Positions 3,540 to 17,709 of a stretch of 64,000 nt of DNA are shown here, one piece after another. A program made the translations under genes and the position numbers. The stretch's first letter is position 1. Each line of letters starts with the position of its first letter. Origin of the DNA: Synechococcus sp. WH 5701 (GTDB taxonomy: Bacteria > Cyanobacteriota > Cyanobacteriia > PCC-6307 > Cyanobiaceae); NCBI RefSeq assembly GCF_000153045.1, contig NZ_CH724160.1, positions 763,499 through 827,498 on the forward strand, in the 5' to 3' direction. The notes under the pieces were generated by a model. The model was not told the DNA's origin. It did not search any database and saw only the letters and a program-made list of their open reading frames with translations.

Positions 3540-4481
3540 ATGCAAGCGATGCTTCCTCAGCTGATCCTGGCTGTTCCCTGGTGGCAGGCCCCAGGGGTGG
3601 TGAAACTGATGGCGGCCCTGGTGGGCCTGGTGCTGATCGTCCTGGCTGTTCGCCTGGCCCAGCACTACATCACCCGCAATCTCAAGGATTCGGACAGCCG
3701 CTACTACGGCCGCAAGCTGATCACCTTCGGGGGCTATGTGGCGGTGATTCTGCTGGTGTCGATCGTCTACCGCGATCGGCTGGTGGGACTGACCGTGGCG
3801 ATTGGTGTGGCCAGTGCCGGCATCGCCTTCGCCCTTCAGGAGGTGATCGGCAGTATCGCGGGTTGGATTGCGATTTCCTTCGGGGGCTTCTACAAACCCG
3901 GAGATCGGGTCCAGCTCGGCGGGATCAAGGGGGATGTGATCGATATCGGCATTCTCAGGACCACCATGATGGAGCTTGGCGAATGGGTCGACTCCGATCT
4001 CTACAGCGGCAGGGTGGTGCGAATCGCCAACAGTTTTGTCTTCAAGGAGCCTGTCTTCAACTACTCTGGCGACTTCCCTTTTCTATGGGATGAGATCAAG
4101 GTGCCGGTCAAGCACGGATGTGATCATCGTCTGGCCCGGACGATTCTCGAGAAGGCGGTGAATGATCTCTACACCGACGAGTTGATGCAGTCATCCCGCC
4201 AGGCCTGGCAGCAGTTGATCCGGCGTTATCTGCTCGAGTCCGCCAGTCTGGAGCCGGCCGTGAGCTTGGTGGTGACCGACAACTGGCTGTCCTTCACCGT
4301 GCGCTACATCGTCGATTGCAAGCGTCGACGCATCACCAAAGACCTGCTCTACACCAACATCCTGGATGCGTTCGAGGCCAGTCAGGGTCGGATCAGCATT
4401 GCCTCAACCACGGTGCATCTGGTGGAAATCCCCCCGCTCGATGTGCGCCTCAACGATGGCAAGGGCCCGGGCAGGAGTTGA
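3540..4481 (+). CDS. MscS-type mechanosensitive channel (short form)
   Basis: A 313-residue small-conductance mechanosensitive channel homolog. Two N-terminal membrane helices (about residues 20-45 and 60-80) precede the pore helix with the SAGIAFALQEVIGSIAGWIAI segment (about 92-115). The beta domain follows, with YKPGDRVQLGGIKGDVIDIGILRTTM (about 120-148) and the soluble C-terminal cage. In the MscS family these channels open on membrane tension after hypo-osmotic shock. The next MscS gene begins 7 nt after its stop, so the two form an operon. Here the beta domain is interrupted by a longer insertion (LGEWVDSDLYSGRVVRIAN) than in the other three channels. Confidence 0.9.
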   Translation: MQAMLPQLILAVPWWQAPGVVKLMAALVGLVLIVLAVRLAQHYITRNLKDSDSRYYGRKLITFGGYVAVILLVSIVYRDRLVGLTVAIGVASAGIAFALQEVIGSIAGWIAISFGGFYKPGDRVQLGGIKGDVIDIGILRTTMMELGEWVDSDLYSGRVVRIANSFVFKEPVFNYSGDFPFLWDEIKVPVKHGCDHRLARTILEKAVNDLYTDELMQSSRQAWQQLIRRYLLESASLEPAVSLVVTDNWLSFTVRYIVDCKRRRITKDLLYTNILDAFEASQGRISIASTTVHLVEIPPLDVRLNDGKGPGRS

Positions 4482-4488
4482 AGCTGTC

Positions 4489-6225
4489 ATGTCCAATCAA
4501 GAAACGGTGGTAGCGAGGGCCATGGGGCGAGCGCGTCGTCATGCCGGCATGGCCAGGTCGAGAGGTGTGGGGTTCTGGTGTGGATCCTTCTGGCCGCAAC
4601 GGGTGCTGGCGCTGCTTCTGCTGCTCGTGCTGCTGGTGCCGGGGCTACCGGGGCTGGCCAGCTCGCCGGTGGCCAGCCCGCTGAAGGCTCTCCCAGCCGA
4701 AAGCCTGCCGGACCACTGCTCCACCACCCCAGCGTGGGTTCAGCTCGATGGCAAGAAGGTGCTGGAGATTCGCTCGGCTCCAGGCGCCCAGCAACTGACA
4801 GTTTATGCCAACCGTGGCAGCCGAGGACTGCAACTGTGGGCTTCCAACCTCAGCTACAGCCCTGAGCAGATCGTTCTGCGCGACGATCCCCCCTACAGCC
4901 TGATCGGCATCCAGCGGGACGGATCCTTCACGGCCAGTCTGGCTGTGGATGATCGCGGAGGGGCCTGCTTCGGGCTCAAGCGCCAGCAGCTGGCTGAGCG
5001 TTATCGCGACAGCCTGCGTCTGGCGCTGGCCAATTACCGCCGCAGCCACACCGCTGGCGCCTGGTCACGAGGCACGGGGCTGGCCCTGCTGGTGCTCGGG
5101 TTCTATGTGCTGTGGGTGCGCCTGCAGCGGCGCCTCCACGGGAGCTTGCGCACTTGGATCGGGGCCCAGGAAGCCGGGCTGTTTGTGCGGGTGCAGCAGC
5201 GCAGCGGCCAGTTGCTGGATCCCGTTCAGCTGCGCGCGTCGCTGCAGCTGCTGCTTCAGGTGCTGCACTGGGCCCTGCTGCTGCTGATCAGCTATCTGCT
5301 GATTCCGCTGCTGCTGGGGTTCTTTCCGCCCACGCAGGGGATCGCCGAAGACTTGCGCGCTCAGATCCTGGCGCTGGTTGGCCGTCTGCTGGCCGCGATC
5401 GTGGCCACGATCCCGAATCTGGCCTCGATCCTGGTGATCCTGGTGCTCGCGGTGCTGGTGAATCGCTGCAGCCATGCCTGGTTTCAGGCCCTCGATCGCG
5501 GACGCATCCGCATTCCCGGTTTTTATCAGGAGTGGGCCCTGCCCACGGCACGGCTTGCCACGATCCTGATCATTCTGGCCAGTGTGGTGCTGGCTTATCC
5601 CTACATCCCCGGTTCCAGCAGCAAAGCCTTCCAGGGGGCCGGCCTGTTGCTGGGTGTGCTGGCGGCTCTGGGCTCCAGCGCCATCGCCACCAACATCATC
5701 AGCGGCCTGATGCTGATCTACACCCGTGCTTTCCGCGAAGGCGACCGTGTCGAGATCAACGGCACCATCGGCGTGGTGCAGGACCGTGCCCTGTTGGTGA
5801 CGCGGATTCAGCCCCCACGAAACGAACTCGTGAGCATTCCCAATGCCACGGTGATTGCCGCGTCGATCCTCAATTTCAGCTTCTCCCGTCGTGAGATCGC
5901 CAGGCCCGTGGCCCTGGCCACCACGATCACGATCGGCTACGACGTGCCCTGGCGCCGGGTGCATGAGTTGATGCTCGCCGCTGCCCACAGCGTCGAGGGC
6001 ATCACCGATGAGCTCAGCCCCTACGTGATCCAGACCTCCCTCAACGACTTCCACATCAGCTACGAGCTCAATGCATTCGTGCGGGATGTGAGCACCTACC
6101 GCCAGACCCTCTCTGATCTGTTGGCGGCCCTCCAGGATCAGTTTGCGGCAGCCCAGGTGGAGATTCTCTCGCCCGGCTATCACGCGATTCGCAGTGGCCG
6201 GGCCAGTACGCTGCCACCTCCCTAG
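4489..6225 (+). CDS. MscS-type channel with periplasmic N-domain (paralog 1)
   Basis: A 578-residue MscS-family channel. It has a signal-like hydrophobic segment (about residues 32-52) and a periplasmic domain of about 150 residues. A membrane region follows, then the MscS core with GSSAIATNIISGLMLIYTR and FREGDRVEINGTIGVVQDRALL, and a C-terminal cage domain. The periplasmic domain has two cysteines (DHCSTT and GGACFG) that are conserved in the paralog at 7963. The ATG at 4489 was chosen because it follows the preceding stop by 7 nt and has an AGGAG motif at 4472-4476; a longer in-frame start at 4366 would lie deep inside the upstream gene. Its TAG stop shares a CTAG palindrome with the stop of the convergent channel gene. 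Confidence 0.9.
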   Translation: MSNQETVVARAMGRARRHAGMARSRGVGFWCGSFWPQRVLALLLLLVLLVPGLPGLASSPVASPLKALPAESLPDHCSTTPAWVQLDGKKVLEIRSAPGAQQLTVYANRGSRGLQLWASNLSYSPEQIVLRDDPPYSLIGIQRDGSFTASLAVDDRGGACFGLKRQQLAERYRDSLRLALANYRRSHTAGAWSRGTGLALLVLGFYVLWVRLQRRLHGSLRTWIGAQEAGLFVRVQQRSGQLLDPVQLRASLQLLLQVLHWALLLLISYLLIPLLLGFFPPTQGIAEDLRAQILALVGRLLAAIVATIPNLASILVILVLAVLVNRCSHAWFQALDRGRIRIPGFYQEWALPTARLATILIILASVVLAYPYIPGSSSKAFQGAGLLLGVLAALGSSAIATNIISGLMLIYTRAFREGDRVEINGTIGVVQDRALLVTRIQPPRNELVSIPNATVIAASILNFSFSRREIARPVALATTITIGYDVPWRRVHELMLAAAHSVEGITDELSPYVIQTSLNDFHISYELNAFVRDVSTYRQTLSDLLAALQDQFAAAQVEILSPGYHAIRSGRASTLPPP

Positions 6226-7865
6226 GCCCCGTCCTGATCGGGCGGCGCGGCGGAGGAATTGCCACGGCCTGCCAGCACTGCCTTGAGCATCTCGCTCAGT
6301 TCAGGGGGCAGGGCAAGCTGCAGATTCTCGTTGCGCAGGTGCAGATCCCGCTGGGGAAATGGGACTGAAATCCCGTGGTGGCGCAGAACGGCCTCGATCC
6401 GGTAATTGAGATCGCTGATGATCTCATACTGGCGCATGGGTTGGTTGATCCACACCAGCAGACTGAAGTTCAAGGAGCTGTCGCCGAAACCGGTGAAGAA
6501 CACCTTTGGACTCGGTTCCTGGAGAATGCCTTGATAGTCTTTGCAGGCTTCCACCAGGGCATGGCTCACGGCGGTGCAATCGGAGCCGTAAGCCACCCCG
6601 ATGGGAAGGATCAGCCGGGAGGTGGGGCTGCCATGGCTCCAGTTCACCACCTGGGATTCGAGGAACTCGGCATTCGGCACGATGATCGCGATTCGATCCA
6701 GCGTCACCACCTCGGTGCAACGAAGGCTGATCTTCTGAACAGTGCCGTGAAGCTCGCCGATCTCGACGAAATCACCCACCTGGATCGGCCGTTCGAAGAT
6801 GATGATCAGGCCACTGATGAAGTTCTTGGTGATGCCCTGAAGCCCGAGGCCCAGGGCCACACCGAACACGCTGGCGAACAGGGCCAGGGAGCTCAGGTCG
6901 AGCCCCCAGAGCTGAAGCAGCACCAGCGAGCCGACGAACAGCAGGGCGTATTGCACCACGAAGGCGATCCCTTCCTGGGCTCCTTTACCGATCCCCGTGT
7001 ACTGCAGCACACGGGTGCGCAGCAGCCGTTGCAGCACCCCCAGCCCCTTGGCCAGGGCCAAGAACAGGGTGATCAGCACGATCACATCCAGCACTGAGTA
7101 GCTGCGTTCCCCCAGCGGCAGGAAGGGGGAAGCGAGGCTGTCGGAGAGCGCGTCTCGCAGCCGTTGCAAGGCCATCCTGCTGATCGGAAACAGCTCGGCC
7201 ACTGTTCCGGCCACGCTGATCCAGATCGCCACCTGCAGGCAACGCAGCAGGGCCCGGATCAGGAAACCGCTGCCAGCCTTCCCTGGGATCAGCTCACCAT
7301 CGGCGCCTGGATGGGGCCACGCCTGCGCGAAGGCCCGCCGGAAGATGGCACCCAGCAGGCGTTGCAGCAGGAAGGCCCCCAGCAGCAGGGCGAGCGAACG
7401 CAGCCCCATCCGCCGGATGTAGGCGGGCTGCCGCTGCAGGCGTCCTTGCTCGAGGGCCTCCACGAGGCGGCGGCGCCATGTTTCCGCCTGGTCCTGCAGG
7501 CTCAGGCCCTCAGCCACATCCAGGCGGGTCACTGTCAGCAGGGGTTTGCCATCGAGGCTGATCACCGGCAGCCCATTGCGTTCCACCACCTGGATCACAG
7601 CCGGTGTTGGGTTCTTGGCGGCGCTCTGGAGCAACCCAGTGGCCGCATCCGCCCGTTGCTCGGCGCTGTAGTCCTTCGAGCTCCGCAGCTGGAACAAGTA
7701 AGTTCCGTCCACTTCCACCTGGGCGGCAGGGATCTCAGCAGCTGCCCGGCTGGGTGACGCTGACGGCATGGCCACCAGCAGCGCCACCAGCAGCACCGCC
7801 GGCCAGAACCATCCCTGCCGTGGTGGCCTGGTGCGGCCCGGTTCACCGGAAGCGTTTGGGTTCAT
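6222..7865 (-). CDS. MscS-type channel with periplasmic N-domain (third type)
   Basis: A 547-residue MscS-family channel with a signal-like N-terminal hydrophobic segment, a periplasmic domain, several membrane helices and a very canonical core. The core has GVALGLGLQGITKNFISGL, then ERPIQVGDFVEIGELHGTVQKISLRCTEV and IIVPNAEFLESQVVNWS. The ATG at 7865 follows GGGGAGG by about 9 nt, better than the longer start at 7904. It is more like MscS/MscK proteins than its neighbours and is not their close paralog. It is convergent with the preceding channel, the two stop codons overlapping in CTAG at 6222-6225. Confidence 0.9.
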   Translation of the reverse strand: MNPNASGEPGRTRPPRQGWFWPAVLLVALLVAMPSASPSRAAAEIPAAQVEVDGTYLFQLRSSKDYSAEQRADAATGLLQSAAKNPTPAVIQVVERNGLPVISLDGKPLLTVTRLDVAEGLSLQDQAETWRRRLVEALEQGRLQRQPAYIRRMGLRSLALLLGAFLLQRLLGAIFRRAFAQAWPHPGADGELIPGKAGSGFLIRALLRCLQVAIWISVAGTVAELFPISRMALQRLRDALSDSLASPFLPLGERSYSVLDVIVLITLFLALAKGLGVLQRLLRTRVLQYTGIGKGAQEGIAFVVQYALLFVGSLVLLQLWGLDLSSLALFASVFGVALGLGLQGITKNFISGLIIIFERPIQVGDFVEIGELHGTVQKISLRCTEVVTLDRIAIIVPNAEFLESQVVNWSHGSPTSRLILPIGVAYGSDCTAVSHALVEACKDYQGILQEPSPKVFFTGFGDSSLNFSLLVWINQPMRQYEIISDLNYRIEAVLRHHGISVPFPQRDLHLRNENLQLALPPELSEMLKAVLAGRGNSSAAPPDQDGA

Positions 7866-7962
7866 GGGCTGACGTCCTCCCCAGGCTTTCGGCAACCTAT
7901 TCACTGGTCGAGGACAGCCAGGGGCTGCACCATGATCGCCATCCAGTCTGATTGAGTCAGCC

Positions 7963-9633
7963 GTGACGCCTCCCGTGGTGCGATCAGGTGGTCATGGGGG
8001 CCGGCTTCGCTCCGCCCTGCTGGTGGTGCTGGCCCTGGGGATGTCCCTGGCCATGGCGCTGCCGCTGGCGGCCCAGCAGGGGGGCAGTGCTCCCTCGGCC
8101 GCGCCGCCGCCGAAGCAGGGCTGTGCCGCGGATCCACCGTTCGTCACCCTCGACGGCCGTAAGGTGATCGAGATCCGCGATGCGGTGGGAGCCCAGAAGC
8201 CCCAGGAGTTCGCCCGACGGGCGAGCGCTCAACTGGCGCGCCTGGCCGAGGATCCTGATTTCCCGTTTGAAAAGCTCAGCCTCAAGGATGAGGCTCCTTA
8301 CACCTTCATCGGCATTCGCCAGGCGGATGGGGGCTTCGAGCAGCTGCTGGCCGTCGATGACCGCGCAGCCGCCTGCTTCGATCTGACCCGCCAGCAACTG
8401 GCCGAGCGCTATCGGAGCAGCCTGCAGACGGCCCTGAGGCAGTACCGGATCGGCCACAGCTGGGTTAACTGGCTGAAGGGGACGGTCCTGGCCCTGATCG
8501 TGCTGGCCATCTACCTGCTCTGGGTGAGGACCCAGGGCCGGCTGAACGCCCGCCTGAGCCAGTGGATCGCCGTCGATCAGAGCCGGCTGCTGCGGGGCGT
8601 GCGCCTGGGCTCCTCCGAGTTGGTGGAATCCAGGCAGGTGCGTCAGATCCTGCAGCTTGTCCGTCGTGTTCTCCACTGGGGCTTGCTGCTGCTGATCAGT
8701 TATCTGCTGATCCCGCTTCTGCTGAGCCTGTTCCCCCCCACCCAGAGCTTCGCCGAGGGCCTGCGTCAGCAGATTCTTCAGGTGATTACGAAGGGCCTGA
8801 GCCTGGTGGGCTCGGTGATTCCGAATGTGCTCTCGATCCTGTTGATCCTGGTGATCACCGTGTACTGCATCCGCGGCAGCAATTCCTTTTTCTCCGCGCT
8901 AGATCGCGGCAGGATCCGCATCCCGGGTTTCTATCAGGAATGGGCGCTGCCCACGGCTCGGCTGGCCGCGATCTTCATCACACTCGTTGGGTTGGTGCTG
9001 GCCTTCCCCTACATTCCGGGGTCGGACAGTAAGGCCTTCCAGGGCGCAGGCCTGCTGTTAGGTGCCCTGGCGGCCCTCGGCTCCAGCGCCATCGCCACCA
9101 ACATCATCAGCGGTCTGATGTTGATCTACACCCGCGCCTTCCGCATCGGCGACCGGGTGGAGATCAACGGCACCCTGGGTGTGGTGCAGGAGCGGGCTCT
9201 GCTGGTGACCCGGATCCGCACGCCACGCAATGAACTGGTGAGCATCCCCAATGCCATGGTGATCGGTGCCTCCGTGATGAACTTCAGCTTCTCCCGCCGG
9301 GAGATCCAGCAACCCGTGGCCCTCTCCACCACGATCACCATCGGCTACGACGTGCCCTGGCGCCGGGTGCATGAGTTGATGCTGGCCGCCGCTCGCAGTG
9401 TGAAGGGCATCACCAAGGAGATGGACCCCTTTGTTCTGCAGACATCCCTCAATGATTACCACATCAGTTATGAACTGACGGCCTACGTGAGCGACCCCTC
9501 CCAGTACCGCGAAACCCTCTCCGAGATGCTGGCGGCGCTGCAGGATCAGTTCGCCGCCGCCGATGTGGAGATCCTCTCCCCCGGCTATCACGCCATCCGC
9601 AACGGCAACGCCAGTACCGTGCCGAAGATCTGA
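7963..9633 (+). CDS. MscS-type channel with periplasmic N-domain (paralog 2)
   Basis: A 556-residue channel that is a clear paralog of the one at 4489. It shares the periplasmic motif with a cysteine then VTLDGRKVIEIRDAVGAQ, the AAACFDLTRQQLAERYR segment, the HWGLLLLISYLLIPLLL helix, the DRGRIRIPGFYQEWALPTARLA block and an almost identical beta domain. An N-terminal signal segment ends around LPLAAQQ. The start is a GTG with a weak ribosome-binding site, and no better in-frame start is visible. Tandem presence of two such paralogs suggests local duplication, separated by the inverted third channel gene. The expected role is osmotic tension release at the cytoplasmic membrane. Confidence 0.9.
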   Translation: MTPPVVRSGGHGGRLRSALLVVLALGMSLAMALPLAAQQGGSAPSAAPPPKQGCAADPPFVTLDGRKVIEIRDAVGAQKPQEFARRASAQLARLAEDPDFPFEKLSLKDEAPYTFIGIRQADGGFEQLLAVDDRAAACFDLTRQQLAERYRSSLQTALRQYRIGHSWVNWLKGTVLALIVLAIYLLWVRTQGRLNARLSQWIAVDQSRLLRGVRLGSSELVESRQVRQILQLVRRVLHWGLLLLISYLLIPLLLSLFPPTQSFAEGLRQQILQVITKGLSLVGSVIPNVLSILLILVITVYCIRGSNSFFSALDRGRIRIPGFYQEWALPTARLAAIFITLVGLVLAFPYIPGSDSKAFQGAGLLLGALAALGSSAIATNIISGLMLIYTRAFRIGDRVEINGTLGVVQERALLVTRIRTPRNELVSIPNAMVIGASVMNFSFSRREIQQPVALSTTITIGYDVPWRRVHELMLAAARSVKGITKEMDPFVLQTSLNDYHISYELTAYVSDPSQYRETLSEMLAALQDQFAAADVEILSPGYHAIRNGNASTVPKI

Positions 9634-9651
9634 GCGGTTGGTCCTCGTCGC

Positions 9652-11325
9652 TCAGGCCTGCTGATCCAGCCCTGCGGCGAGGTAATGCTCCACTGCACGC
9701 TCGATGTTGCGGTGCATCCGCTCTTTCCCCAGCCGTTCCCCCAGCTCCGATCGACGGATCACCTCCAGCACCGTGGGGTTCAACCCCGCCAGCCAGAGGG
9801 AGATTCCCTGCCGATCCAGGCGCCGCTCCGCTTCCGTGATCACTTTGAGGGCGGAGTATTCAATGTCGATCACGGCGCTGCCATCCAGCACCACCACCCT
9901 TGGCTGGTGCTGGTTGATCTCCGCGCGCATCCGCTGGAGCACCCCATGGGCATTGGCGAAGAACAGGCGCCCCTCGGCCCGGAGCAGCAGCAGCCCCGGC
10001 CAGGTCTCATCGCGGGGATGCCTGGCTGAGAGTGGCCGGAACACATCAGTGCCGCGCTTGCGGCCGATGGCGTACACCGGTGGGTTCACCTCCTGCTGAA
10101 CCAGGGCCAGCAGGGAGAGGATCACGGCCACGAGGATGCCTTTGAGGGTGCCCAGGAACACCACCCCCAGGAAGGCCACCAGCGCCCAGCGGAATTCGAT
10201 GTGTCGGACACGGCGGATCGCCAGGAATTCGCCCGGGGCGATTAATTCGAACGAATAGACGATCACCACCACCGCCAGGGCCGCCAGGGGCATCAGAGCG
10301 ATCAAGGGAGCGAGCAGCAGCAGGGTGGCCAGCGCGGCTCCTGCCGTGACCAGCTCCGCCATCTGACTGCGGGCCCCGGCCTGGCGGTTCACCGCCGTCT
10401 GGGTGGTGCCGCCGCCTGCCGCCATCGCTCCGAAGAAGCCGCCGCCGATGTTGGCCAGGCCGAGGGCCAGCAGCTCCCGGTCGGGTTGCGGAGAAGGTTC
10501 ATCGCTGGCGCGGAAGGCCCGCGCTGCGGCGATGCTTTCCGTGAAACTCATCATGGCGATGCCAGCCGCCCCTGGCCAGAGACCGCCGAGCAGATCCAGT
10601 CGGGGCAAACTCAGGGAAGGCAGCCCCCTGGGCACGGCGCCCACCAGCTCCACGCCGAAGCGATCGAGCCCCAGCAGGGCACAACCGGCGATCGCAACGG
10701 CCACCACCACCAGCGGTGCCGGTACCGACGGCAGACGACGCTTCAGGCCGAAGAGCAGGCCGAACAGAGCGGCCGAGAGCAGCACCGTGGCCAGCGACGC
10801 CTGCGGGATCCCAACCAGCAGCGCAGCGAGGTCGCGGAAGAAGCCTTCCTTCTCCCCATGCAGCCCCAGCAGCTTGGGCAGCTGATCCACGACGATCACC
10901 AGACCGATGCCGGACTTGAAGCCCACCAGCACCGATTCGGAGATGAAGTTGGCGATGAAACCGAGCCGCAGCAGGGCGGCGCCGCAGAGCATGGTGCCCA
11001 CCAGCAGGGCCAGGGTGGTGCTGGCCGCCACCAGGGCGCTGGGATCACCCAACGGCGAGAGCCGGTTCAGCTCGCTGCCCACCAGGATCGCCAGGGTGGT
11101 GGTGGTGCTCACGCTCAGGGGTCTGGAGCTGCCCAGCAGGGCGTACACCGCCATCGGCACCAGGGCCGTGTATAGACCCACCTGCACCGGCAGTCCGGCG
11201 ATCGTGGCGTAGGCCATCGCCTTGGGCAGCACCACCGCGGCGGCGGTCAGTCCGGCTGCCAGATCCGCCTGCCCCAGTCCACGCCGATAACCGCTGGGCA
11301 GAAGAGAAGCAGGAAACTGGGCCAT
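9652..11325 (-). CDS. SulP-family anion transporter with STAS domain
   Basis: A 557-residue SulP (SLC26-like) transporter. The membrane part (about residues 15-420) includes LPKAMAYATIAGLPVQVGLYTALVP and GGGTTQTAVNRQAGARSQMAEL. A C-terminal STAS domain (about 440-540) has VVVLDGSAVIDIEYSALKV. SulP proteins carry sulfate, bicarbonate or other anions; BicA, a cyanobacterial bicarbonate transporter, is a member. The gene is the last of a six-gene run beginning with a sulfatase, 33 nt after the BASS transporter gene, and that context favours sulfate or a sulfated anion. The substrate is inference. Confidence 0.88.
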   Translation of the reverse strand: MAQFPASLLPSGYRRGLGQADLAAGLTAAAVVLPKAMAYATIAGLPVQVGLYTALVPMAVYALLGSSRPLSVSTTTTLAILVGSELNRLSPLGDPSALVAASTTLALLVGTMLCGAALLRLGFIANFISESVLVGFKSGIGLVIVVDQLPKLLGLHGEKEGFFRDLAALLVGIPQASLATVLLSAALFGLLFGLKRRLPSVPAPLVVVAVAIAGCALLGLDRFGVELVGAVPRGLPSLSLPRLDLLGGLWPGAAGIAMMSFTESIAAARAFRASDEPSPQPDRELLALGLANIGGGFFGAMAAGGGTTQTAVNRQAGARSQMAELVTAGAALATLLLLAPLIALMPLAALAVVVIVYSFELIAPGEFLAIRRVRHIEFRWALVAFLGVVFLGTLKGILVAVILSLLALVQQEVNPPVYAIGRKRGTDVFRPLSARHPRDETWPGLLLLRAEGRLFFANAHGVLQRMRAEINQHQPRVVVLDGSAVIDIEYSALKVITEAERRLDRQGISLWLAGLNPTVLEVIRRSELGERLGKERMHRNIERAVEHYLAAGLDQQA

Positions 11326-11358
11326 GGTGCGGATGAGCAGCTCTGATGATCCGAAGAC

Positions 11359-12243
11359 TCAGGCGGATTCGGAGAGCTCACGCTGCTGCCATTTCAGAAA
11401 CAGGGTGGAGATGATGACCGTGATCAACACATAGGAGAGGATTCCGGGAATCAGCTCAGGCATCCCTGGTTGATAGGTCAGGGCCAGTTGAGCCGCCAGG
11501 CCCGTGTTGCGCATCCCCGTCACCAGCGCCACCGTTCGACTCTCCAGCGGATCCCGTCCGGCCAGGCCATAGCCGATCGCCAGGCTGAACACGCTGAGGC
11601 CGGCCATCGCGGCCAGGGCCAGCAGGTTCTGCTGGAGGAAGGGCACCAGCTGCCTGCCGCTCAGCACCAGCAGAGCCACCAGCATCAGCATCAGCAGCAG
11701 GGTGGCCAGGGCACCGAGAGCACGGCTGCAACGCTGGGCCAGCTGCGGCTGCCACTGCCCCAGCAGCACGCCGGCGATCACGGGCAGCACCTGCACCTGC
11801 AGCACCTGCATCGCCACCTGGGCCGGGTGGATCTCCCACCCGTCGATCTCCCACCCGTTGAGGGCGACGCTGGCCTTGAACACGACCGCCATCAGGGGAA
11901 TGGTGACGATGGCCAGCAGCGCCGCCGCGATCTGCAGCCGCGCCGCGAGCTCAGCCGTGCCGCCACTGCTGCGCACCCGGAAGAGGATGAGCGGGGCGCT
12001 GGGACACGCCAGCATCAGGGCCATGGCTGCCCAGGCAGGGCGTGTCAGCACCCCTTGCAAGGGCAGCAACACCAGCACCAGCCCGGCCAGGGGCACCAGC
12101 AGGCAGGTGCCGAGCACCACGCGCCAGAGAAAGGCGGGGCGATCTCTGAGCAGCACGAACGGGTAGTCCTTCAGCCCGAGTCCAAGGCTGAACATGAGTG
12201 TCACGATGGTGGCCGTGACCAGGAGCGCTGCAGATTGGGGCAT
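11359..12243 (-). CDS. BASS-type (bile acid:sodium symporter-like) transporter
   Basis: A 294-residue, almost entirely hydrophobic protein with about nine or ten membrane segments. Recognisable BASS/SBF features are TIVTLMFSLGLGLKDYPFVLL at the N-terminus, an ACPSAPLILFRVRSSGGTAELAA segment around residue 80, and TGMRNTGLAAQLAL near residue 245. Family members move organic anions, including steroid sulfates and bile-acid conjugates in animals and keto acids or pantothenate in bacteria. It starts 5 nt after the DUF202 stop. A short tandem duplication gives the repeated residues GWEIDGWEI near 128-136. Importing a sulfated organic anion for the neighbouring sulfatase is a reasonable guess but unproven. 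Confidence 0.8.
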   Translation of the reverse strand: MPQSAALLVTATIVTLMFSLGLGLKDYPFVLLRDRPAFLWRVVLGTCLLVPLAGLVLVLLPLQGVLTRPAWAAMALMLACPSAPLILFRVRSSGGTAELAARLQIAAALLAIVTIPLMAVVFKASVALNGWEIDGWEIHPAQVAMQVLQVQVLPVIAGVLLGQWQPQLAQRCSRALGALATLLLMLMLVALLVLSGRQLVPFLQQNLLALAAMAGLSVFSLAIGYGLAGRDPLESRTVALVTGMRNTGLAAQLALTYQPGMPELIPGILSYVLITVIISTLFLKWQQRELSESA

Positions 12244-12248
12244 GGGAG

Positions 12249-12635
12249 TTAGCCGACGGGGATACCCGTTACCAGCAGGGCAAAGGCCACAATGCCGATG
12301 ATCGTGAGGGCAATGGCTGTGAAGACGGTGATCGAGCGCTGATCGACATACACGAAGTCGTCGCGCCGAATCAGCTTGAGCGTGCGCAGGTGCTGCCGGG
12401 TGGCCGCCGCCATCGCCAGGATGCCGATCAGCACGAAACCGATCGCCACAAGACGCACACTCAGGCTGGCATGGGCACTGCCATCAAAGCGGCTGCGGTT
12501 GATCGCACCGATGATTTTGTCGAGGCCGAAACCAAAACTGATCAGCGACAGGCAGGTGCGAATCCAGGCCATCATCGTGCGCTCGGCGGCAGCCCGGTTG
12601 CGCTCCTTGGCCAGTTCGTTGTTGAGATTTCCCAT
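12249..12635 (-). CDS. DUF202 (YidH-like) membrane protein
   Basis: A 128-residue protein with the DUF202 signature near the N-terminus, ELAKERNRAAAERTMMAWIRTCLSL (shown in two pieces ELAKERNRAAAERTMM and AWIRTCLSL, residues 7-31). Three hydrophobic helices follow, near residues 27-45, 60-80 and 103-125. DUF202 proteins are small inner-membrane proteins of unknown function. The ATG shares one base with the stop codon of the DUF1622 gene (TGATG), so translation is coupled. It sits inside the sulfatase/FGE/transporter run. Confidence 0.85.
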   Translation of the reverse strand: MGNLNNELAKERNRAAAERTMMAWIRTCLSLISFGFGLDKIIGAINRSRFDGSAHASLSVRLVAIGFVLIGILAMAAATRQHLRTLKLIRRDDFVYVDQRSITVFTAIALTIIGIVAFALLVTGIPVG

Positions 12636-13033
12636 CAGTACGGCGTGGCTGCCAGATTGGCCGTCTGCTGACGTTGAACATCCTCCAGCTTCTGTTCGGC
12701 TTCCACCTCGCGGCCGAGGAAGACGTTGAGAAAGGTTCGAATCACAGCCACCACCGCCAGCTTGATCAGGTTCTCATTCGAGGGTGCCGTGGTGGTGGCG
12801 ACGATGTCGGCCGCCAGTTGAAATTCCAGCGCCATCGACAGCCAGCTGCCGAAAGTGAGCCGGGTGCTGTTGAAAGGCCGTCCATGAGATTGGCCGTTGC
12901 GACGCGGGCGAAGGCTCTGACGCAGGGTGACAAGGAACCCGATGGCCACGCAGACAACGGAGACGCCTTCCAGCAGCAGTCGCAACCCCCCGGCGACCAG
13001 CTCAAGCACCTCCTTGAAGAGGACAGCAGGCAC
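12635..13033 (-). CDS. DUF1622 membrane protein
   Basis: A 132-residue membrane protein with a first helix at about residues 10-36, a TRLTFGSWLSMALEFQLAADI segment typical of DUF1622 near residues 58-78, and a third helix followed by FLNVFLGREVE. DUF1622 has no assigned function. The GTG start is 3 nt after the FGE stop and is preceded by GAGGAG at good spacing inside the end of the FGE gene. The DUF1622-DUF202 pair probably forms a small membrane unit, and co-occurrence with a sulfatase system is notable. Confidence 0.82.
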   Translation of the reverse strand: MPAVLFKEVLELVAGGLRLLLEGVSVVCVAIGFLVTLRQSLRPRRNGQSHGRPFNSTRLTFGSWLSMALEFQLAADIVATTTAPSNENLIKLAVVAVIRTFLNVFLGREVEAEQKLEDVQRQQTANLAATPY

Positions 13034-13036
13034 GGT

Positions 13037-14026
13037 TCAGCTCCTCACGATGCAACGGAAGCCCATGTGGCAGGTGGAGGTGTCGATGCCCTGGGCCATG
13101 CGGGCGGCAGGGCGGTAGCGGCGGCAGTAACTGGGAGCGCAGAGAAACGAGCCGCCTTTCACCACCTTGCGAGGGATGGTGCCGTGCTGGGAGGCGGTGT
13201 CAATGCTCTCCTGCCGCGAGGCACCGCGGGGGGACTCGATCGTGCAGCAGCCCCCGGCCTGCTTATGGGCCGCCACCGTGGCGCCGTGGCCGGCGTACCA
13301 GTCGTCGGTCCACTCCCAGACATTGCCGATCATGTCGAGCAGGCCGTAGCCGTTGGGCGGGAAGCTGCCCACCGGCGAGGTGCGCTCCCAGCCATCGAGC
13401 AGGCTGTTGTGGTGGGGGAAGTCCCCCTGAAAGGTGTTGGCCATCGGCCGGCCGCCCGGATGGAGCTCCTCCCCCCAGGCGAACTCAGCCCCCTCCACTC
13501 CGCCCCGGGCGGCCCGCTCCCACTCGGCTTCGCTGGGCAAGGCCTTGCCGGCCCAGGCGGCGTACGCCAGGGCATCCTCATGGGCCACATGCACCACGGG
13601 ATGGTGGTCGCGGCTCTTGATCGAGCTGCCCGGGCCTTCCGGGTGGCGCCAGTTGGCCCCCTGCAGGTACTGCCACCAGCGGTAGGGATCGCCCGTGCTG
13701 ATGGGCCCGGGCGGAGGTACGAACACGATCGATGACGGAGCCAACAGCTCCGGCAGGGCGTCGGGGTAGGCCGCCGGATCCGCCGGCCGCTCGGCCAGGG
13801 TCACGTGACCCGTGGCCTTCACGAACTTGCGGAACTGGGCGTTGGTGACCGGTGAGCGGTCGATCCAGAAGCCCTCCACCACCACCCGGTGGGCCGGGGA
13901 TTCTTCAGGGTAGTGATCATCGGAGCCCATCAGAAAGCTGCCGGCCGGGATCCAGACCATGTCCCGCGCCGGCGGGCGCCCTGGAGGGCGGTCAGTCTGG
14001 GCCATGGACGCTGGAGCAGGCGACAT
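13037..14026 (-). CDS. Formylglycine-generating enzyme (sulfatase-modifying factor)
   Basis: A 329-residue FGE/SUMF1-family protein. Family landmarks are MVWIPAGSFLMGSDDHYPEE at residues 23-42, DRSPVTNAQFRKFV near 57, LPSEAEWERAARGG near 163, and GNVWEWTDDWY near 237. Both catalytic cysteines are kept in GGSFLCAPSYCRRYRPAAR (about residues 291-309), so it is a catalytically competent FGE rather than one of the many cysteine-lacking FGE-sulfatase-domain proteins. It oxidises the sulfatase active-site cysteine to formylglycine. There is no signal peptide, so modification occurs in the cytoplasm. The start lies 8 nt after the sulfatase stop with GAGG upstream, and the coupling suggests the adjacent sulfatase is its client. 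Confidence 0.92.
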   Translation of the reverse strand: MSPAPASMAQTDRPPGRPPARDMVWIPAGSFLMGSDDHYPEESPAHRVVVEGFWIDRSPVTNAQFRKFVKATGHVTLAERPADPAAYPDALPELLAPSSIVFVPPPGPISTGDPYRWWQYLQGANWRHPEGPGSSIKSRDHHPVVHVAHEDALAYAAWAGKALPSEAEWERAARGGVEGAEFAWGEELHPGGRPMANTFQGDFPHHNSLLDGWERTSPVGSFPPNGYGLLDMIGNVWEWTDDWYAGHGATVAAHKQAGGCCTIESPRGASRQESIDTASQHGTIPRKVVKGGSFLCAPSYCRRYRPAARMAQGIDTSTCHMGFRCIVRS

Positions 14027-14033
14027 CTGATCC

Positions 14034-15536
14034 TCAGGAGCTGCCGAGGGTGGCCGTCATCTTCTTGATTGCATCGCTCACCGTGAAGCTGGCCGCCTTC
14101 TGGCGGGGCGGGAAGTCCTTCAGGGTCTCCAGGGCCTGGGCCACCCTCGCTTGAGCGGGAACCAGCAGGAAGACATGGTCGAGCATCCAATCCCAGTAGG
14201 TGTTGGAGGTGATGTCGGCCCGCTCGTAGGGGTCGGTGAGCAGGTTGAAGATTTTGGGAACACGCAACTCCGTGAAGGGTTCAGCCCAGATCTGCAGCGT
14301 GCCGGAGCAGCGCTGCTCCATGAACACGAATTTCCAGTTGTCATAGCGCAGGGCGGTGAGATCGCCGTCGTCGGAGAAGTAGAAGAAATCGATGCGCGGA
14401 CTTTTATCGGTCTTGCCGGTCCAGTAGTCGAGCATGTTGTAGCCATCCAGGTGCACCTTGAAAGTCTTGTTGCCCACCTGATACCCCTCCAGACACTTCT
14501 GCTTGATCTCCGATTCGCCGGCTGCCGCCAGGATCGTCGGTAGCCAGTCGAGATGGCTGACGATGCCGGTGAGCAGGGTGCCGGGTTCAATGTGGCCGGG
14601 CCAGCGCACCATGCACGGCACCCGGTAGGCCCCTTCCCAGTTGGAGTTCTTCTCGTTGCGGAAGGGGGTCATGCCGGCATCGGGCCAGCTGTTCATATGG
14701 GGGCCGTTGTCGGTGCTGTACATCACGATCGTGTCATCGGTGATGCCCAGCTCATCGAGCAGATCGAGCATCTCACCGATGCAGTTGTCGTGATAGATCA
14801 TCACGTCGTGATACTCCGACTGCCACCGCCCTGACTGGCCAATGTCCTGGGGCCGTGCGTGTGTGCGGAAGTGCATGTGGGTGGTGTTGAACCACACGAA
14901 GAACGGCTCGCCGGAGGCCACCGCATCGGTGATGAAGCGCTTGGCCTCCTTCATGAACTCCTCGTCGGCCGTCTCCATCCGCTTCCTGGTGAGCGGGCCC
15001 GTGTTCTCGATGCGCTGGGTGCCGTCGCCATTGGCCCAGCAGTGCAACACGCCGCGGGGTCCGAAGTTCTTCTTGAAGTTGGGATAGTCAGCTTCGGGGG
15101 GATAGTCGCGCAGTTCCGGCTCTTCCTCGGCATTGAGGTGATAGAGATTGCCGAAGAATTCGTCGAAGCCGTGCATCGTGGGCAGGTATTCATCCCGATC
15201 CCCGAAGTGGTTCTTGCCGAACTGACCCGTGCGGTAGCCCTGGGGCTTGAGCAGCTCGGCAATCGTGGGATCCTCGTCCTGGTAACCCACCTTGGCGCCG
15301 GGCAGGCCCACCTTGCTGAGGCCGGTGCGGAACACGCTCTGGCCGGAGATGAAGGCTGCCCGGCCGGCGGTGCAGCTCTGCTCGGCGTAGTAGTGGATGA
15401 AGCGGGCCCCCTCCTTGGCCACCCGGTCGATGTTGGGGGTCTGGTACCCCATCAGCCCATCGCTGTAGCAGCTGAGGTTGCTCTGGCCGATGTCGTCGCC
15501 CCAGAGGATCAGGACGTTGGGCTTTCCGTTGGGCAT
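14034..15536 (-). CDS. Cys-type arylsulfatase-family sulfatase
   Basis: A sulfatase of about 500 residues. The N-terminus, KPNVLILWGDDIG, carries the paired metal-binding aspartates. The active-site signature CTAGRAAF (about residue 55 from this start) is the C-x-(A/P)-x-R motif whose cysteine is converted to formylglycine. MYSTDNGPHMNSWPD further on supplies further metal ligands. No signal peptide is visible, implying cytoplasmic desulfation of an imported ester. The ATG at 15536 starts just before the conserved core; longer versions reach a GTG at 15644 with a proline-rich non-conserved lead. It is first in a run with FGE and transporters and is divergent from an AraC-type regulator. The substrate is unknown. 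Confidence 0.9.
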   Translation of the reverse strand: MPNGKPNVLILWGDDIGQSNLSCYSDGLMGYQTPNIDRVAKEGARFIHYYAEQSCTAGRAAFISGQSVFRTGLSKVGLPGAKVGYQDEDPTIAELLKPQGYRTGQFGKNHFGDRDEYLPTMHGFDEFFGNLYHLNAEEEPELRDYPPEADYPNFKKNFGPRGVLHCWANGDGTQRIENTGPLTRKRMETADEEFMKEAKRFITDAVASGEPFFVWFNTTHMHFRTHARPQDIGQSGRWQSEYHDVMIYHDNCIGEMLDLLDELGITDDTIVMYSTDNGPHMNSWPDAGMTPFRNEKNSNWEGAYRVPCMVRWPGHIEPGTLLTGIVSHLDWLPTILAAAGESEIKQKCLEGYQVGNKTFKVHLDGYNMLDYWTGKTDKSPRIDFFYFSDDGDLTALRYDNWKFVFMEQRCSGTLQIWAEPFTELRVPKIFNLLTDPYERADITSNTYWDWMLDHVFLLVPAQARVAQALETLKDFPPRQKAASFTVSDAIKKMTATLGSS

Positions 15537-15663
15537 GGGAGGTGGGGCCTGTGTTGGCTGCGGGTCTGGCGCTGGAGGTGTGTCCAGCTCCGGCCCAGTG
15601 AGGAACTCACTCACAACATGCCGCCCATGGCAGGGTGGGGCCACTCAGAAAGTGCAAGCGGCG

Positions 15664-16689
15664 ATGGCTCCGCTCCACAGGTTCGAGGCTGTTGAGCAAC
15701 TGGAAACTCAGCTGCAGGAGGCGGGGCTGGATGTGCGTCTGCTCCAGCTCTCCAACGGCCGCCTCAGCGGCAGCCTCGTCATCCGCCGGCTCGGGCCACT
15801 GCGCTTGCTGCGGCTCCAGGCCAACCGTTGTCTGCACGTGGCTGGATCCAAGCCCCTGGATCAACGCCTGGTCTGTCTGAACCTTCCGCCTTCCGGCGGC
15901 GGCGCCCCTCTGCGGGCCCACGGCACCACCATCGGCCCCGATGTGCTGTTCGGTCTCGACCCCCGGGCGGAGGTCCACCTCTCCACTCCTGAGCAGATGG
16001 ATCTGGCGGTGGTGATGCTGACCCCCAGCACCCTGACGCGCTGGAGCAGCGGCCAGGGTGACCGTGATCTGGAAGCGGCGCCCTTCCGCTGCAATTGCCT
16101 GCCCATCGATGTCGACAGTCGCACGCAGCTCCAGCGCTGGTTGCTCAAGCTGTTGCCCCTCCAGGCAGAGACACCCTCAGTGCCGGTCGTGTCGCCATCG
16201 GCACCGGAGGCAGCTGGTGGTGGTCTGTTGCCTCTGCTCGTTGATGCGCTGGAGCAAGGCCTCAGGCTGCGGGGCGTGACCGACAGCCCGCCGGCACGGA
16301 TCCAAATGGTCAAGCAGTTGCAACAGTGGGTGGAGGAGCACCCCCTTGAGCCGATCAGCCTGGATGGCCTCTGCCGTCAGGCGTATGTCGGACGACGCAG
16401 CCTGATCCTGGGGTTCAAGGAGCACCTCGGCATGGGGCCGATGGCTTATTTCAAGCTTCAGCGGCTCCATGGTGTTCGCCGTGGGCTGCTGGAAGCAGCG
16501 CCTGGGGCGGTCACGATCTCAGGGTTGGCGGCCTCCTGGGGCTTCCTCAATCCGGGGCACTTCGCCCGGGATTACCGCCGGTTGTTCGGGGAGCTCCCCA
16601 GTGCCACGCTCTCCGGTCGGTTCAGCCCCGCCGTCCTGGCCCGGGGGCACGGCACAGCGGTTGACCGCCTCCCCCTCGGATCCTGCTGA
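15664..16689 (+). CDS. AraC-family transcriptional regulator
   Basis: A 341-residue protein with an N-terminal sensing domain of about 220 residues. The C-terminal AraC/XylS double helix-turn-helix (about residues 235-325) includes PISLDGLCRQAYVGRRSLIL, FKEHLGMGPMAYFKLQRLH and WGFLNPGHFARDYRRLFGELPS. The N-terminal domain is not an obvious cupin and resembles the sensor halves of cyanobacterial AraC regulators. The ATG at 15664 was chosen over an upstream extension that is only the antisense of the sulfatase gene. Its divergent position beside the sulfatase gene makes it the likely regulator of that run. Its last 171 nt overlap the convergent HAD gene. Confidence 0.85.
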   Translation: MAPLHRFEAVEQLETQLQEAGLDVRLLQLSNGRLSGSLVIRRLGPLRLLRLQANRCLHVAGSKPLDQRLVCLNLPPSGGGAPLRAHGTTIGPDVLFGLDPRAEVHLSTPEQMDLAVVMLTPSTLTRWSSGQGDRDLEAAPFRCNCLPIDVDSRTQLQRWLLKLLPLQAETPSVPVVSPSAPEAAGGGLLPLLVDALEQGLRLRGVTDSPPARIQMVKQLQQWVEEHPLEPISLDGLCRQAYVGRRSLILGFKEHLGMGPMAYFKLQRLHGVRRGLLEAAPGAVTISGLAASWGFLNPGHFARDYRRLFGELPSATLSGRFSPAVLARGHGTAVDRLPLGSC

Positions 16690-17709
16690 CCCTGAAGGAG
16701 CCGCGAACACCGTGGCCCAGTCGTCGCGCATGCTCACCACCGTCCAGCCCTGCCGCGGGGCTTCGCTCAAGGCCCGATCGAGATAGCCGAAGGCGGATTG
16801 GCGGTCGTAGGCCACCTCCCGCTCGGGGTCGTCGTGGTGAACGATCACGCCCAGGCGGGGCCCCGGCAGGCTGGTGGTCCACTCCAGCATCTCCAGATCA
16901 CCGTCGGAGTTGCCGAAGGCGGCGATCGGCCTGCGGCCGATCAGCTGCTCGATCAGGACCGGCTTCATGGCCCGATCGGCGACCGTCTGGACCTCGCTCT
17001 CGCGCAGGATCACGGGCAAGCCACCGCGCAGGGCGTAGGTGGTGACGACGCTGGAGCCGATCACCTGCTCCGGCGGGATTCCGTAGGCCTCCTCGGCGAA
17101 CACCCGCATGAACTCCACGCCGCCGGCCGAAACGATGTAGGTGCGGAAGCCATGGGCACGCAGGTGCTCGAGCAGCTCCCGCATCGGCTGGTAGGTCAGG
17201 GTGGTGTAAGGCCGCTTCAGGGTCGGGTGGCAGGCGCTGTCCAGCCATTCGCGCACCAGATCGCGGAACACATCCGTGCTCATGCCGGCATGGGTGATCC
17301 CCACCAGATCCAGCAGACCCTTGATGCCCATGGTGAGCACGGCCTCCCCGTTGCCGGCAGCGGCCGCCGCGGCGATGACCGGATTGGCAGCGAGACCGGG
17401 CTGCTGGGCCACCATGGCGCGGGCCCGCTCGATCGCGAAGGCCAGCTGCACGTACATCGGCTGCTCCGACCAGAGCGTGCCGTCGTTGTCGAAGACGGCG
17501 ATGCGCTCCTCGGGCGGCCGATAGCTCTCCCCCCCCGGCTGGCTGACGCTGGCGACGAAGGCCAGGATCCGTGACCTGGTGGCACCGTCCCGCCAGGAGG
17601 GGAGGGGCTGGCTGGCCATGGCGGGCGCCAAAGGGGACATCATCTTCAGGGTGAGCAGGCTTCCGGCAGCCGTCGCCAGGACCCGCGTCAGCCCCCCGTG
17701 GTCCTTCAC
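16519..17709 (-). CDS. HAD-superfamily phosphatase, probably exported
   Basis: A 396-residue protein with a hydrophobic N-terminal segment (about residues 8-32, ending SPLAPAMASQ). HAD motifs follow: motif I VFDNDGTLW near residue 72, motif II YIVSAGGVEFM near 195, and motif IV FGNSDGDLEMLEW near 265. The core resembles the haloacid dehalogenase-like phosphoserine-phosphatase-type proteins of about 320-340 residues. The final ~55 residues are low-complexity and lie antisense to the AraC gene, so the frame may simply have drifted past an ancestral stop. The GTG start overlaps the rdgB stop (GTGA). The substrate is unknown. Confidence 0.8.
   Translation of the reverse strand: MKDHGGLTRVLATAAGSLLTLKMMSPLAPAMASQPLPSWRDGATRSRILAFVASVSQPGGESYRPPEERIAVFDNDGTLWSEQPMYVQLAFAIERARAMVAQQPGLAANPVIAAAAAAGNGEAVLTMGIKGLLDLVGITHAGMSTDVFRDLVREWLDSACHPTLKRPYTTLTYQPMRELLEHLRAHGFRTYIVSAGGVEFMRVFAEEAYGIPPEQVIGSSVVTTYALRGGLPVILRESEVQTVADRAMKPVLIEQLIGRRPIAAFGNSDGDLEMLEWTTSLPGPRLGVIVHHDDPEREVAYDRQSAFGYLDRALSEAPRQGWTVVSMRDDWATVFAAPSGSAGSEGEAVNRCAVPPGQDGGAEPTGERGTGELPEQPAVIPGEVPRIEEAPGGRQP

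Follow-up and report, generated by a model that had tools for sequence, protein, structure and literature searches.

How might a picocyanobacterium draw on sulfate esters with a sulfatase that stays in the cytoplasm? The question is raised by a 64,000-nucleotide stretch of DNA from Synechococcus sp. WH 5701 (contig NZ_CH724160.1, positions 763,499 to 827,498; hereafter the window), part of a 3.28-Mb genome. Its minus strand carries a run of genes for a sulfatase, a formylglycine-generating enzyme (FGE), a DUF1622 and a DUF202 membrane protein, a BASS transporter, and a SulP transporter. As stated in a preliminary description of this DNA, the six genes are packed on one strand and belong to these families, each scoring above the curated Pfam cut-off; the spacings, from SulP upwards, are 33, 5, −1, 3, and 7 nucleotides. 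Import followed by cytoplasmic desulfation is the most economical reading of the locus, which is probably a module that imports and desulfates small sulfate esters. A single transcript is what we infer from gene spacing alone, because scans of the operon for promoters and terminators were uninformative, with no promoter-like site found and terminator-like sites at the level of shuffled sequence.

The sulfatase (14034..15536, minus strand) is a Type I (formylglycine) S1 enzyme, with the PF00884 domain (163 bits; cut-off 25) and the C-x-[PA]-x-R motif in the form CTAGR, as expected of the Cys-type sulfatase first called here. The motif cysteine aligns with alanine in the printed chain of 1e2s, which is presumably a mutant. 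The DD, Arg, Lys, His, DN, and Lys positions of human arylsulfatase A are kept, as read by eye from the alignment; we take these to be metal ligands and catalytic residues. The protein is predicted to hydrolyze a sulfate ester. Its longest reading frame opens at GTG 15644, with ATG 15536 internal to it. Among homologs of >70% identity, 74 of 78 have a start codon at the same five-residue lead as ATG 15536 (73 ATG and one GTG), although the script sought the start nearest the window ATG and favored ATG, and thus shows that a start exists there rather than that it is used. From these alignments, ATG 15536 most likely is the start, in preference to GTG 15644. A hydrophobicity script detected no hydrophobic N-terminal stretch from either codon, and the sulfatase is therefore taken to be cytoplasmic; its proposed lack of an export signal holds for both starts. 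The FGE (13037..14026, minus strand; PF03781, 277 bits) is of the aerobic type. Its active-site cysteine pair (KGGSFLCAPSYC) aligns with the pair in solved FGEs (best E 1.1e-69), and its N-terminus has no clear hydrophobic stretch or signal peptide by the same script. The alignment and the script thus bear out an FGE with both catalytic cysteines and without a signal peptide.

The association of these genes is conserved among relatives. The family set comprised 201 genomes, taken as Cyanobiaceae (Cyanobium and Synechococcus), including some untyped metagenome-assembled genomes (MAGs) and one record labelled a Bifidobacterium MAG (L070; L numbers denote loci). By protein search (E 1e-60), the sulfatase occurs in 54 of these genomes; DUF1622 gave 69 matches across 61 genomes, and DUF202 was matched in 64, of which 61 were above cut-off. 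Of the 54 sulfatase-bearing genomes, 40 have DUF1622 and 44 have DUF202 within 12 kb of the sulfatase, a count that excludes three sub-cut-off DUF202 rows and five sulfatase rows of 36–37% identity; seven of the 54 have no DUF1622 at all, and five have no DUF202 over cut-off. Because a 25-kb stretch is <1% of a 3-Mb genome, chance proximity is excluded, but common descent is not. Among the 67 named loci, 37 have 9 kb on either side (full loci), and in these the sulfatase has nearby FGE in 34, BASS in 33, DUF202 in 31, and DUF1622 in 29. All four occur together in 26 of the 37, with the nearest copies all on the sulfatase strand. Gene order varies by lineage (sulfatase-FGE-DUF1622-DUF202-BASS, DUF1622-DUF202-BASS-sulfatase-FGE, and others), and linkage kept despite rearrangement speaks for function. 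The conserved synteny for which the preliminary description had proposed a search thus exists as an association, but not as a fixed order, and SulP is not at its core.

Sulfatases outside the family differ in their neighbors according to whether they carry a signal peptide. The sample consisted of 57 such sulfatases with neighbors within 9.5 kb, and signal peptides were assigned by the simple hydrophobicity script rather than a trained predictor (L162, whose hydrophobic stretch the script missed, was set as signal-bearing by hand). The sample excludes the family members L105, L106, L108, and L111, together with L141 (a duplicate of L041) and L164 (cut N-terminus); L172–L174 and other matches of <53% identity or <350 aligned residues were filtered out, and the near-duplicates L120 and L136 were both counted. 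BASS, DUF202, or DUF1622 is near 15 of 25 signal-less sulfatases vs. 2 of 32 signal-bearing ones (Fisher p 1.6e-5). The same tendency is seen for BASS alone (11/25 vs. 2/32), DUF202 alone (14/25 vs. 2/32), and DUF1622 alone (6/25 vs. 1/32, p 0.036), as well as for loci of ≥12 kb (15/25 vs. 2/25, p 2e-4) and for non-cyanobacteria (8/12 vs. 0/29, p 5e-6). No difference between signal-less and signal-bearing sulfatases was found for FGE (9/25 vs. 9/32) or for HAD hydrolases (6/25 vs. 7/32). The excess of membrane genes at signal-less sulfatases is what import would predict. The earlier proposal of cytoplasmic desulfation after import is consistent with the missing export signals on sulfatase and FGE and with the conserved gene association; import itself is the part that we infer.

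The candidate importer is the BASS protein (11359..12243, minus strand). It has the SBF domain of its family (PF01758, 47.1 bits; cut-off 24.3) and falls below the cut-off of the curated TIGR00841 (57.9 vs. 326.3 bits). Where the ASBT structure 4n7w reads TLAIEVGMQN, the window protein reads TVALVTGMRN; it thus has VTGMRN in place of the Glu/Gln motif EVGMQN, whose glutamate and glutamine we take to serve the Na+ site of ASBT. Arginine in place of this glutamine, and no glutamate, was found in 60 of 60 aligned sequences (the window included, with 57 other loci), and in a wider set the arginine is kept in all 21 readable module rows. Of 35 control loci, 19 were alignable and 18 readable at the site; these SBF proteins have Asn (12), Glu/Gln (four), Ser (one), or Arg (one), and the lone Arg-type control (L178) is a second BASS copy in the genome of the window. 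With these Na+-site residues exchanged, the protein is unlikely to be Na+-coupled in the manner of ASBT. The crossover arginine is a candidate contact for the sulfate group.

DUF1622 (12635..13033, minus strand; PF07784, 82 bits) and DUF202 (12249..12635, minus strand; PF02656, 62 bits) are small membrane proteins. Their AlphaFold models are of low confidence (mean pLDDT 62.5, with three helices, and 64.9, respectively). In profile searches against solved structures, DUF1622 had no match and DUF202 had non-significant matches only, among them VTC1 (E 0.68).

The module is not confined to cyanobacteria, and parts of it also occur in Proteobacteria. A Phyllobacterium plasmid has the order DUF202-sulfatase-BASS-FGE-DUF1622, its sulfatase being matched in two pieces. 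A Neorhizobium locus has DUF202, two sulfatases, DUF1622, MscS, and AraC, and a Paraburkholderia locus has BASS, DUF202, anSME, and sulfatase. Sulfatase, BASS, HAD, anSME, DUF202, and DUF1622 are present in the cyanobacterial MAG L041, in which, as in Paraburkholderia, the maturase is anSME and not FGE. The membrane genes recur in Alpha-, Beta-, and Gammaproteobacteria. At E ≤1e-150, and with the search centers included, the sulfatase search matched 14 of 292 cyanobacterial genomes, 8 of 385 genomes in the class of a Phenylobacterium, and 13 of 369 genomes in the class of a Methylococcaceae MAG. The occurrence of the module is patchy, and horizontal transfer has likely spread it.

In the mechanism we propose, the Arg-type BASS, perhaps aided by DUF202 and DUF1622, would bring an organic sulfate monoester through the inner membrane; Na+ symport is probably not the mode. 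In the cytoplasm, FGE would oxidize the cysteine of CTAGR to formylglycine, a step well founded on knowledge of the family, and the sulfatase would split the ester into sulfate and an alcohol or phenol. The freed sulfate would pass to assimilation, and the remainder would be metabolized or released. A fuller version of this mechanism, which we put forward tentatively and with some doubt, is a horizontally spread organic-sulfate uptake system in which an Arg-type BASS, its Na+ sites traded for guanidinium, would work with a DUF202/DUF1622 membrane complex and a cytoplasmic sulfatase having its own FGE or anSME; this would be a first role for DUF1622.

The enzyme is of a known kind, and its set of membrane partners, also present in unrelated bacteria, is one for which no description was found. 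None of the titles and abstract openings listed from the literature searched, which includes few subscription journals, describes the module; mentions of DUF1622 and of arylsulfatase with DUF202 were off topic, and a passage of PMC2491639 mentions sulfatases in other organisms only. In Pseudomonas, the ats system (AtsA with AtsRBC) consists of a cytoplasmic formylglycine sulfatase and a dedicated inner-membrane ABC importer. The window is similar in joining such a sulfatase to a dedicated inner-membrane importer, but has BASS with DUF202 and DUF1622, an FGE in the operon, and an AraC gene; no ABC importer genes were found among the ten window open reading frames scanned (6222–17709). The window sulfatase is distantly related to 1hdh (E 2e-14), presumably the P. 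aeruginosa enzyme. In animals, steroid sulfatase acts following import by SOAT, so that desulfation takes place in the cell. SOAT (SLC10A6), of the SLC10 family, imports sulfated steroids (PMC10298714), and is thus a precedent within the SLC10/BASS family for import of sulfated organic anions. The suggested link between BASS and a sulfated anion gains from this precedent, but not in its Na+-coupled mode: SOAT is Na+-dependent and belongs to no operon, whereas in the window BASS the glutamate and glutamine of the ASBT Na+ site are missing.

Fresh water contains organic sulfates as a pool of sulfur. S1 (aryl)sulfatases are present in freshwater picocyanobacteria and absent from marine strains, according to passages of PMC9361551. 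Among these, CK_00006730 is a possible counterpart of the window sulfatase, likened by description as an S1 arylsulfatase of freshwater picocyanobacteria; it is named as a gene cluster, and unlike the window it is accompanied by no module in those passages (PMC9361551). The whole module is present in L092, labelled Prochlorococcus sp. MIT 0701 (54.7% G+C), either a marine exception or contamination; unless its contig is misassigned, it is an exception to the marine absence reported in PMC9361551. Signal-bearing arylsulfatases of other bacteria in the same family, such as L112, L118, L119, L131, and L132, have 58–73% identity to the window sulfatase. As at the window, HAD lies beside L118, L119, and L131, FGE beside L118, and a divergent AraC beside L131, but these sulfatases differ in their signal peptide and have no BASS, DUF202, or DUF1622 within 9.5 kb.

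Several observations weigh against import and desulfation as the role of the locus. A sulfatase tree of 73 rows (56 of the 57, L136 being absent, plus the window and 16 selected loci of the family) has only four signal-peptide changes and ten module-presence changes. Its four independent pairs give a same-way count of 1.3 on average vs. 0.1 the other way (median p 1), for which the sign test is without power; with just four such pairs, the link between location and transporter may reflect descent. A second signal-less clade (L149, L165, L120, and L148), nested among exported sulfatases, helps the import idea, with module genes in three of its four loci. Ten of the 25 signal-less sulfatases have none of BASS, DUF202, and DUF1622, whereas BASS and DUF202 do accompany L117 and L147, two sulfatases from other cyanobacteria that bear a signal peptide. 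DUF1622 occurs at glycogen, metal, and other plasmid loci with no sulfatase in view, and 14 of the 201 family genomes have DUF1622 but not this sulfatase. The second Arg-type BASS gene of the window's genome (L178 among the controls; L210:9102-9959; G000 C8, ~125 kb) has no sulfatase within its 19-kb stretch; a gene ~3.6 kb from it presumably encodes sulfate adenylyltransferase. The regulator is of the AraC family and not a known sulfur regulator. Lastly, the module is carried by L081, labelled a Black Sea strain, and Black Sea water is not sulfate-poor.

The regulator and the Black Sea locus would suit a function outside sulfur nutrition, in which the module handles an internal or signaling sulfated metabolite and BASS, DUF202, and DUF1622 would serve to expel the product of desulfation or a conjugate. 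The AraC gene (15665..16689, plus strand; HTH_18, 59 bits) is divergent from the sulfatase gene, as the preliminary description had it, with ~130 bp between the two ATG codons; an AraC gene is near the sulfatase in 30 of the 37 full loci, the nearest being on the opposite strand in 28. A gene for a HAD-family hydrolase (16519..17709, minus strand; PF12710, 53 bits; PDB 4ovy, E 1e-102) follows, and HAD is a recurrent partner, near the sulfatase in 15 of the 37 loci (12 on the same strand) and beside sulfatases in other bacteria. Neither AraC control, nor the HAD partner, nor two exported-looking families, each near the sulfatase in 21 of the 37 loci, suggest sulfur starvation. The SLC10 precedent with sulfated anions, however, is one of import (PMC10298714), and the freshwater bias of S1 arylsulfatases fits scavenging (passages of PMC9361551); we consider an internal or signaling role unlikely. 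For import and desulfation, AraC would sense a signal and control the divergent operon, and HAD may, as a guess, have as its target a phosphorylated compound related to, or formed from, the substrate.

An osmotic or turgor role, by which the cell would import and break down a sulfated solute and MscS, DUF202, and DUF1622 would form a membrane-stress set, appears less likely still. An MscS-type channel gene (7963..9633, plus strand; PF00924, 66 bits) is convergent with the operon as a possible accessory partner; such genes occur near the sulfatase in 15 of the 37 full loci, beside the Neorhizobium module, and, outside the family, near 5 of 25 signal-less vs. 0 of 32 signal-bearing sulfatases (p 0.013). 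However, 22 of the 37 loci have none, and the window alone has three adjoining MscS-type genes (4276–9633; strands +, −, +), so that proximity is cheap. In addition, the sulfatase lies far under the cut-off of the choline sulfatase equivalog TIGR03417 (90.8 vs. 433.45 bits). In the import-and-desulfate module, MscS may, again as a guess, relieve solute build-up. Very improbable is an ordinary stand-alone sulfatase-FGE pair with membrane genes as neighbors kept by descent: it would suit the sulfatase loci with no BASS, DUF202, or DUF1622 in view (e.g., L066, L107, L109, and L110) and the lack of power of the tree-corrected test, but the linkage of the membrane genes survives reordering, and these genes recur across three proteobacterial classes.

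The SulP protein (9652..11325, minus strand) has the Sulfate_transp (PF00916, 289 bits) and STAS (PF01740) domains and scores below TIGR00815 (367.7 vs. 380.45 bits). It keeps the glutamate of transmembrane helix 8 in alignment with plant SULTR4;1, a residue that presumably has a role in that transporter, and it may carry sulfate. SulP was initially counted as part of the module, but it is near the sulfatase in just 6 of the 37 full loci, and in L081, which has the highest sulfatase identity among the named relatives, it is separated from BASS by two opposite-strand genes. It was rejected as a core gene and fits best as an accessory gene in the window's lineage, in which it would be an extra anion transporter adjoining the operon. 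The module had also been called complete; the six genes are present, but the HAD and MscS partners had been omitted.

The HAD and AraC genes of the window overlap tail to tail by ~170 nucleotides (16519–16689), and the reading frames in L081 overlap likewise. The two exported-looking families, one Gly/Arg/Asn-rich and the other with conserved cysteines, occur as pairs (e.g., L081:14360-15807 and L048:12615-14326); the L048 members have no Pfam match, and neither pair has a meaningful NCBIfam match. DUF1254/DUF1214 proteins also lie near family sulfatases (L039:13230-15311 and L103:12017-13990), in 4 of the 37 full loci, and no literature joining DUF1254 with sulfatase was found. The genome of the window has another FGE-sulfatase-HAD set (L211:7389-12314; G000 C8, ~327 kb), whose sulfatase matches in two overlapping frames and may be broken or misassembled.

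If import and desulfation is the role of the locus, an importer would be named for the use of organic sulfates by picocyanobacteria, and two DUF families would be tied to a function. The arginine in place of the Na+ site would then be a sequence mark by which such carriers may be found in other bacteria.

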